A stretch of DNA of 64,000 nucleotides from Alteraurantiacibacter aquimixticola. GTDB taxonomy: Bacteria > Pseudomonadota > Alphaproteobacteria > Sphingomonadales > Sphingomonadaceae. The first letter of the stretch is position 1, and each line of letters starts with the position of its first letter. Under the pieces are notes generated by a model. That model saw only the letters and a list, made by a program, of their open reading frames with translations. It ran no database searches and was not told where the DNA came from. The stretch lies in NCBI RefSeq assembly GCF_004965515.1, contig NZ_SSHH01000002.1:330840-394839 (forward strand), in the 5' to 3' direction. Both the position numbers and the translations under genes were made by a program. Shown here piece by piece: positions 28,394-30,691 of this stretch.

Positions 28394-30691
28394 CTATCCC
28401 GCCGCCGCGACGATCTCGGCCCAGGCAGCCTCGTCGATCACCTCGATGCCGAGCTCGGCTGCCTTCTTGAGCTTGCTGCCCGCGCCGGGGCCAGCGACCA
28501 CCAAGTCGGTCTTCGCACTGACCGAACCCGCAGCCTTCGCCCCCAGCCGCTCGGCCTGTGCCTTGGCCTCGTCGCGGCTCATCGTCTCCAGCTTGCCGGT
28601 GAAGACCACGGTCTTGCCCGACACCGCGCTTTGCGTGGTCTCGACGACATATTCGGGCGGGTTGGTGACGGAGAGGATATCCTCCCACACTTCGACATTA
28701 TGCGGCTCGTGGAAGAAGTCGCCCAGCGCCTCCACCACCGCGCCGCCGATGCCATCGATGCTGGTGAGCGCTGCGGTGGCCTCCTCGTCTCCATCGCGCG
28801 CCTTTTCGGCCGCTTCGCGCAGGGCGGGCAGTGTGTGGAAGTTCTTCAGCAAGTCGCGCGCGGTGACCGCACCCACATGGCGGATGCCGAGACCGAAAAG
28901 CAGCCTTGCCGCATCGGGCGCGCGCTTCGCCTCGATACTGGCGAGCAGGTTCTCGACCGACTTTTCCTTCCACCCGTCCAGCGCGAGGATCTCGGCCTCG
29001 CGATCCTTCAGGCGGTAGATGTCCGCCGGGCTTTCGAGCCAGCCCAGCGCGAAGAACTGGTCGATCGTCTTCTCGCCCAGCCCCTCGATATCGAGAGCGG
29101 CGCGGCTGACGAAATGCTTGAGGCGCTCGGTCCGCTGCGCCGGGCAGATCAGGCCGCCTGTGCAGCGCACGTCGACCTCGCCCTCTTCGTTCACCGCCTC
29201 GCTGCCGCATTCGGGACAATGGCCGGGGAAGTCGAAGGCGGGACGATCCTCGTCACGCGTGAGATTGTCGACGACCTGCGGGATCACGTCGCCCGCACGC
29301 TGGATCACCACGCGGTCTCCCGGACGCACGCCCAGCCGCTCGATCTCGTCGCGATTGTGCAGTGTGACATTGGTGACGGTGACGCCGCCCACCAGCACCG
29401 GCGCGAGGCGTCCGACCGGTGTCAGCTTGCCGGTGCGGCCTACCTGTATGTCGATATGTTCGAGCACGGTCTCGGCCTGCTCGGCGGGAAACTTGTGCGC
29501 CATCGCCCAGCGCGGCGCCTTGGCGACGAAGCCCAAACGCTTCTGCCAGTCGAGCCGGTCGACCTTGTAGACCACGCCGTCGATTTCATAAGGCAGGTCC
29601 GCGCGCCGCTCCATGATGCTGCGATATTGCTGCAGCATGTCCTCGACCGAATGGCACAGCACGAGGTCGGGAGAGATCGGCAGGCCCCACTCGGCAATAC
29701 GCTGCATCACCTCCATCTGCGTCTCGCCCGGCACCTCCGATGCTGCGCCCCAGCCATGCGCCCAGAAGCGCAGCGTGCGATGCGCCGTGACGCTCGCATC
29801 CTTCTGCCGCAGCGATCCGGCGGCGGCATTGCGCGGGTTAGCAAAGACCTTTCCGCCCGCTTCTTCCTGCGCAGCATTGAGCGCAGCAAAGTCCTGTTTC
29901 GCCATGTAAACTTCGCCGCGCACCTCGAAGACGTCGGGAGCGTTTCCGTTCAGCTTCTGCGGGATATCGGCGATATGCGCGACATTGGCGGTGACGTTCT
30001 CCCCCACCTGCCCATCCCCGCGCGTGGCGGCGAGCACCAGCTCTCCCTTTTCATAGCGCAGCGAGCAGGACAGGCCGTCGATCTTGTCCTCAGCCGTCAT
30101 GATGACGGGCTCATCCTCGGGCAGAGCAAGGAAGCGCCGCACGCGGGCGACAAAGTCCTCTACCTCCTCATCCGAGAAGGCGTTGTCGAGGCTCATCATG
30201 CGAACCTCATGGACGACCTTAGTCAGAGCATTCTTGGACGGGGAACCAACAATTTGCCTTACACTGAAGAGATCATCTTCGCTGACGACGAGTTGATCCT
30301 CCAGCGTCTGGGCTTTGAGCTTTAAAGCATCGAACGCCTCATCGGTGATAATCGGATCGTCAAGCTCGTCGTACCGGTATCGGTGAAACTGAATATCATG
30401 AAGAAGCTTTGCGAGCTGGACTGCCTGCGGACGAAGTGTCTCCTGCCGAATTTCGGACTTTTCCTCGTCCGAAAGCTTCCCGACCTTTTTTCTCGGAGCT
30501 GTCGGCGAGTCGTAACGAACAAGCTGCGGAAACTCGCGTTCAAGTTCGCGGTTCCGCCTGACTAGTTTGTCAAACTCCTTATTGGTTATCTCTGGTGCCT
30601 GCTCCGAATGATAGAGCCAACGGTGGTGCCTGATGGCCCTAGCCAGCCGCATCAACTCATTGGCGGCCTCGGCTTCGGAAATCCCCGCCAT
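28394..30691 (-). CDS. ligA: NAD-dependent DNA ligase with duplicated N-terminal Ia domain
   Basis: 765 residues, longer than the 670-720 usual for LigA. The order is Ia copy 1 (about 12-70, [19 protein letters not shown]), linker, Ia copy 2 (about 91-150, [19 protein letters not shown]), adenylation domain (K203 in DKIDG), OB fold, Cys4 zinc finger ([15 protein letters not shown]), helix-hairpin-helix repeats and a BRCT domain (about 690-765). Neither Ia copy is canonical: copy 1 keeps the Y-H pair but has Asn at the position of E. coli D32, copy 2 keeps Asp there but has Asp in place of H23. The part coding residues about 10-160 is AT-richer than the rest, suggesting recombination. The ATG overlaps the stop of the upstream lipoprotein gene. 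It seals nicks in DNA. Confidence 0.95.

Follow-up and report, generated by a model that had tools for sequence, protein, structure and literature searches.

The ligA gene of Alteraurantiacibacter aquimixticola raises the question of how a NAD+-dependent DNA ligase came to carry two Ia segments in front of a single catalytic domain, and of what each of them does. The window, i.e. the whole stretch of 64,000 nucleotides analysed, belongs to the genome labelled G000, and the first and second Ia segments of its LigA are referred to as copy 1 and copy 2. The gene lies at 28394..30691 on the minus strand and encodes 765 amino acids. Its first in-frame start is a GTG at 30694 (open reading frame 28394-30694, minus strand, 766 amino acids), but the ATG at 30691, which overlaps the TGA of the upstream gene, is the likelier start and was preferred. 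The protein passes both LigA equivalog models, NF005932 with 848.8 bits (cut-off 369) and TIGR00575 with 775.9 bits (cut-off 444.45), and according to Pfam its domain set is complete, with the KxDG adenylation domain followed by OB, Zn, HhH and BRCT. The nucleotidyltransferase (adenylation, NTase) domain, at 29480..30232 of the minus strand, holds its KIDG at residues 203-206 and is native. PF01653 matches ligA alone genome-wide, making it the only LigA of the genome. The ligase body is plainly that of a LigA, and the deviation is confined to the Ia part.

Copy 1 (30494..30676, minus strand, approximately residues 6-66) is native-derived by alignment and tree, copy 2 (30236..30436, minus strand, approximately residues 86-152) is of the imported type described below and bears a DLFSV motif, and the charged linker between them (30437..30493, minus strand, approximately residues 67-85) can be aligned with the N-terminal arm that the imported Ia has in two relatives, G018 and G066. 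The Pfam model Nlig-Ia (PF22745) gives two stretches on the whole protein, with 31.6 bits for a cut-off of 27. Scored separately, the two segments reach 23.5 bits (copy 1, E 8.9e-5) and 17.9 bits (copy 2, E 0.005), and since both values fall below the cut-off, Pfam by itself is weak evidence for an Ia. The model misses many ordinary Ia, given that a match at E 0.001 exists in 208 of 337 class genomes and one over the cut-off in just 111. Comparison with solved LigA gives the firmer evidence: copy 1 aligns to residues 6-60 of E. coli LigA (2OWO, 37.7 bits), a piece made up of copy 2 and the first part of the following domain aligns to residues 7-87 (27.1 bits), and this piece matches H. influenzae LigA (4UCO) with an E of 6.4e-7, query and match both including the NTase start. 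The two tandem segments proposed in the preliminary description are thus borne out, by the Pfam stretches as well as by the alignments to 2OWO and 4UCO, and its calls of Asn37 for D32 in copy 1, Asp108 for H23 in copy 2 and Phe for Y35 in both were right.

Concerning the canonical Ia residues, Y22, H23, D32, Y35 and D36 of E. coli correspond, in ATG numbering, to Y27, H28, N37, F40 and D41 in copy 1 and to Y107, D108, D117, F120 and D121 in copy 2, and neither copy holds all five (Y22, H23, D32, Y/F35, D36). The Phe at the Y35 position is no lesion, because 13 of 48 ordinary relatives have it as well. The other two substitutions touch positions that are invariant in the ordinary proteins: D32, replaced by Asn in copy 1, is kept in 48/48 ordinary relatives, and the H23 position is His in 48/48 ordinary LigA and Asp in 5/5 imported Ia. 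The distance from Y22 to the SLDN motif is 60 residues for copy 2 and for the four relatives that share its type, as in 43 of the 48 ordinary LigA (59 in the remaining 5), and 140 residues for copy 1. Judged by this spacing, copy 2 stands in the canonical register before the catalytic domain, and copy 1 outside it. Predicted structures show copy 1 as a two-helix hairpin, approximately residues 6-28 and 37-53, with ten-residue-block mean pLDDT values of 73-95 over residues 1-60 in two models, and copy 2 as helices at approximately 75-110 and 117-134; both models are of low-to-moderate confidence (mean pLDDT 65.4 and 75.6, pTM 0.39 and 0.45), their alignments each favour one copy, and which copy docks is not shown by them. 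A Foldseek search with one model finds LigA, the match extending over the whole model.

The 5' coding part is AT-richer than the rest of ligA, as the preliminary description had it: GC is 0.51-0.54 in three 250-base windows spanning 30125-30624 and 0.62-0.69 across 28375-30249. With 240-base windows, 30181..30600 is the sole stretch of ligA with GC below 0.53, going down to 0.50 where the mean of the whole window is 0.639. The first 20 or so codons of copy 1 are GC-rich and near the genus sequence and its remainder is diverged (GC3 0.59), so that with the AT shift from approximately codon 21 part of copy 1 might also be foreign.

To see how far the copy 2 type extends, several genome collections were searched. 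Of the 40 genomes of the genus, 38 match the copy 1 region next to their ligase, G000 has both copies, and G018 has the imported type only. Copy 2 used as a query on 396 genomes of the order yields 116 bits for G018, 116 for G066, 82 for G366 and 74 for G202, with the next genome at 48. A profile built from the five members gives 155-166 bits for G066, G000, G018 and G202 among 397 genomes of the family, all others remaining at or below 85.5 (G366 is evidently outside the 397 drawn). Only G000 and G066 pass E 1e-24 among 385 class genomes, and in 349 phylum genomes the same two reach 129-131 bits, with the next at 48.9. A scan of 84,980 species genomes, window's own genome excluded, with two short exact patterns that would miss divergent members, returned 33 stretches, four of which were confirmed and are precisely the four relatives: Altererythrobacter sp. 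KTW20L (taken as G018), MAG 12-68-11 (G066), Sphingobium bisphenolivorans YL23 (G366) and MAG SPHING1 (G202), two of the four being MAGs. The two named members, Altererythrobacter and Sphingobium, place the family as Sphingomonadaceae. The imported Ia of the four are 41-66% identical to copy 2. In all four the native Ia is missing, i.e. it was replaced outright by the imported type, with no tandem. Looking for other two-Ia proteins thus met with success only as to type, since the copy 2 type turned up in four relatives and no tandem was present in the 5' parts of the 52 other LigA of the comparison set. PF22745 is too insensitive to give the frequency of tandems, as G000 itself produces one match among the 337 class genomes; G742 has two matches, on different contigs. 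G014 was considered as a second tandem and rejected, its wide gap between Ia and NTase being a run of N (L063:2000-2174), an assembly gap that mimics an insertion.

The phylogenetic comparison was based on 53 genes, comprising the five imported cases, 30 ordinary genes out of the 38 that the genus offers (G013, G014, G017, G026, G028, G029, G031 and G038 were outside the set) and 18 more ordinary genes drawn from five further genera, among them those of G066, G366 and G202. Each ligase body began 25 residues past the K of KIDG, which excludes most or all of the imported part. On the resulting 53-LigA tree five changes of the label 'imported Ia' are required, all five forced by well supported branches, and a single clade for the five bodies is rejected with a p-AU of 1.57e-112. 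In the tree of the Ia part, which has 84 columns and long branches, the five imported Ia form one clade (support 99/95 with 56 rows, 100/99 with 54 rows), and when G366 and copy 1 are left out the remaining four still do so (99/98). Copy 2 belongs to this clade, and copy 1 is native-derived with a long end branch. The length of that branch, 1.38, is approximately 17 times the Ia-tree median of 0.083, and the body of the same ligase has 0.07 in the body tree.

Composition points in the same direction. For the 48 ordinary genes, subtracting body GC3 from Ia GC3 gives -0.039 +/- 0.044, with a minimum of -0.114; the same difference amounts to -0.447 in G366, -0.385 in G018, -0.309 in G066, -0.280 in G000 (copy 2) and -0.123 in G202. 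The imported five are the five lowest of the 53 genes in both GC3 and GC difference to their own body, G202 being marginal in GC3 (z -1.9) and not in total GC (z -5.1). AT-rich codons extend to approximately residue 120-150 in G366, so the donor DNA must have included no less than the beginning of an adenylation domain.

BLAST comparisons place the downstream border close to the H of HxxRM[ML]SL[DN]N: in all five, similarity to ordinary ligA resumes no more than a few codons away from it. Counted in bases from the ATG, it resumes at 480 in G000 (6/6 relatives), at 271-288 in G018 (6/6), at 300 in G066 (3/3), at 252-261 in G366 (4/4) and at 253-255 in G202, whose junction rests on three of five relatives, the other two giving one gapped alignment through the Ia region. 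For the gene in the window this sets the 3' junction at 30211..30235 (minus strand), similarity to the ordinary ligA of the genus being back from 30211 in all six relatives compared. The upstream border is less even than the downstream one, and few cases show it sharply. In G000 similarity extends over the first 49 to 103 bases of the native Ia. With G366, three of the four relatives stop matching 112-113 bases ahead of the start (the fourth gives a 22-base piece only). Similarity stops 11 bases before the start in one relative of G202 and 396 before in two, 189-237 bases before it in four of six relatives of G018 (there is none upstream with the other two), and 480 bases before it in two of three relatives of G066. 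The view that recombination with foreign, ligA-like DNA lengthened the 5' part is supported by these junctions together with the trees and the GC values, as far as comparison of sequences can support it.

Our preferred reading, to which we give a probability of about 0.78, is that an Ia module has been imported repeatedly from an unseen pool of AT-rich donors and that this LigA is one product of it, the tandem being the case in which the native Ia was retained; it is the only such case found. The foreign type, the single Ia clade, the five acquisitions, the downstream border and the register of copy 2 all come from comparative evidence, and the events behind them would have been as follows. 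An AT-rich donor with a ligA-like gene and a distinct Ia (Asp for His23, DLFSV) would have recombined with the resident ligA, with one crossover in the conserved start of the adenylation domain (HxxRMMSLDN) and the other at or near the start of ligA. The borders suggest homologous exchange at the former and a less homologous join upstream. In the four relatives the imported Ia would have replaced the native one, and in G000 the upstream junction would have fallen inside or just behind the native Ia, so that the native copy was kept as an N-terminal appendage and has since diverged. Copy 2 would then perform NAD+ binding and NMN release of step 1, and copy 1 would be largely redundant; being fast-evolving and having lost D32, it looks like a leftover.

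This division of tasks differs from the original proposal that the two copies share NAD+ binding. Complementary half-domains, with His28 from copy 1 and Asp117 from copy 2 and NAD+ between them, would fit in so far as the missing residues do complement each other on paper, but we consider the arrangement very improbable. The four relatives have the copy 2 type only, with the same Asp at H23, a single PF01653 match per genome (as in all five) and no second LigA, canonical spacing is found in copy 2 only, and copy 1 evolves far faster than its own ligase body. Because these relatives carry only that type and one LigA each, the imported Ia apparently works alone, and sharing becomes unnecessary; domains of ATP-dependent ligases (PF01068) are present in all five genomes, so the case for sufficiency in vivo is strong but indirect. 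The retained features of copy 1 can also be taken as signs of a new job, namely that of a tethered accessory domain (NAD+ store, regulator or protein contact) beside a catalytic copy 2: the frame is open, Y22, H23 and D36 are kept and a two-helix hairpin is predicted. Against such a role speak the loss of a D32 that all 48 ordinary relatives have, the branch some 17 times the median, and the occurrence in one genome only, which leave it unlikely. That the tandem is an assembly error or chimera at 30200-30690 is scarcely credible, even if it is seen in a single genome, since two different sequences share one open frame on a contig of 939 kb and the copy 2 type is present in four other assemblies.

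Other explanations concern the source of the imported type. It could be an old allele of the family, ancestral and lost in most lineages, with no recent transfer, as its diversity (41-66% identity to copy 2) and its having turned up in a single family would allow; the AT-rich composition against native bodies, the change near a domain border and the many losses that the body tree would need make this a far-fetched option. Integrative elements can supply a replacement N-terminus to the gene into which they insert, as SXT does in prfC, and an element targeting the 5' end of ligA would explain a similar 3' border in five genomes together with a replaced 5' coding end; the AT-rich gene matching a defence family that G018 has between its recN-like gene and the gene before ligA would also fit. 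Yet no integrase was recognised by sight among the genes called around ligA, a recN-like gene lies upstream with none to few small genes between, and the AT-rich codons past the border in G366 indicate that crossovers were not at one fixed site, so we regard such a scar as quite unlikely.

Returning to recurrent import, the donor was searched for in several collections. The best matches were 43% identical among phages and 41% among plasmids, with no donor in either. In viral contigs, two profile-pattern scans gave 57 stretches each and a single-sequence query 62, none confirmed, and a DNA motif that recovers four of the five known cases in fetched loci gave 0 matches; the genome scan led back to the four relatives alone. 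These scans of viral contigs and genomes rely on short exact patterns, and divergent donors would escape them. One phage hit came from a host of this group, a Citromicrobium phage LigA, which was discarded as donor for having an ordinary Ia with His.

Around ligA itself, a gene of 170 amino acids (30691..31203, minus strand, from ORF calling), lipoprotein-like by sight and with no match in a Pfam search, overlaps the ligA start, and upstream of it lies the recN-like gene (31200-32924, by sight, from ORF calling). A recN-like gene, again by sight, is found upstream of ligA in all five loci, with none (G366) to few small genes between. No foreign gene common to the five loci was seen by sight, family searches having covered some neighbours only, and by composition alone none of the other four loci has an AT-rich gene directly beside ligA as in G018, although AT-rich stretches do occur at a greater distance in those loci. 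The gene in question (L081:8148-8996) matches the candidate defence family PDC-S31, is DUF2971-like under Pfam's cut-off and seemingly frame-shifted, and begins where the recN-like gene ends, with the small gene preceding the swapped ligA lying downstream of it. Elsewhere in the window, 41461-43860 contains AT-rich stretches with GC down to 0.39 and is a possible anti-phage island; it includes a gene for a dGTPase-type HD phosphohydrolase (41670-43010, minus strand, PADLOC dGTPase, 461 bits), adjoined by an ORF of 231 amino acids without match. Two more stretches with GC below 0.53 are found at 5881-6900.

LigA is essential and an antibacterial target, and mutagenesis of its Ia was reportedly carried out by Sriskanda and Shuman in 2002. 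With bacterial LigA in general (NF005932/TIGR00575; E. coli 2OWO, 5TT5) the protein of G000 shares the order Ia-NTase-OB-Zn-HhH-BRCT, the KIDG and a native body and locus, but it differs in having two Ia segments, of which the one in canonical position is foreign with Asp for His23. The LigA of KTW20L, 12-68-11, YL23 and SPHING1 have the same imported Ia, downstream border and AT-richness, and differ in that the native Ia was replaced outright. Solo Nlig-Ia of phages (PF22745) resemble the present case in that Ia is a separate evolutionary unit, with weak profile similarity; there it stands alone, whereas the Ia of the present case is joined to a cellular ligase and passes from one ligase to another. 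PHROG 6466 and 18456, two 'DNA ligase' families of 104 and 119 positions, look like solo Ia. Solo Nlig-Ia are described from 81 phages and proposed to act as NAD+ sensors or shields, and the separation of Ia has in the authors' view no cellular precedent (PMC9503650). Work on LigA inhibitors has centred on the NAD+-binding Ia (PMC8123306). Among the open-licence papers listed by literature searches, none reports, as judged by title and beginning of the abstract, an Ia domain that is duplicated in tandem or exchanged.

That the same domain of an essential gene was swapped on five separate occasions suggests that the new Ia itself was selected for; a neutral course is also conceivable, in which the conserved border sequence merely makes Ia exchange easy. 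The boldest reading of the recurrence is escape from an Ia-directed antagonist, with no antagonist or donor seen: Ia would be a contested site where an agent of the habitat (a toxin, a natural inhibitor of the NAD+ site, or some phage protein, for instance a solo Ia) attacks the normal Ia, and an AT-rich mobile pool would supply a resistant Ia with Asp for His23 that has entered the ligase on five or more occasions, each time at this one domain border; the tandem would be a swap caught half done. We hold this as a speculative idea that is probably wrong. The most likely reading of the tandem is that a replacement of Ia, recurrent in the family, remained incomplete here, and the replacement is more interesting than the tandem alone. 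Repeated natural exchange of Ia, altering a residue kept in 48/48 ordinary relatives, would show that bacteria can re-equip this pocket by recombination, and points to a selective agent.
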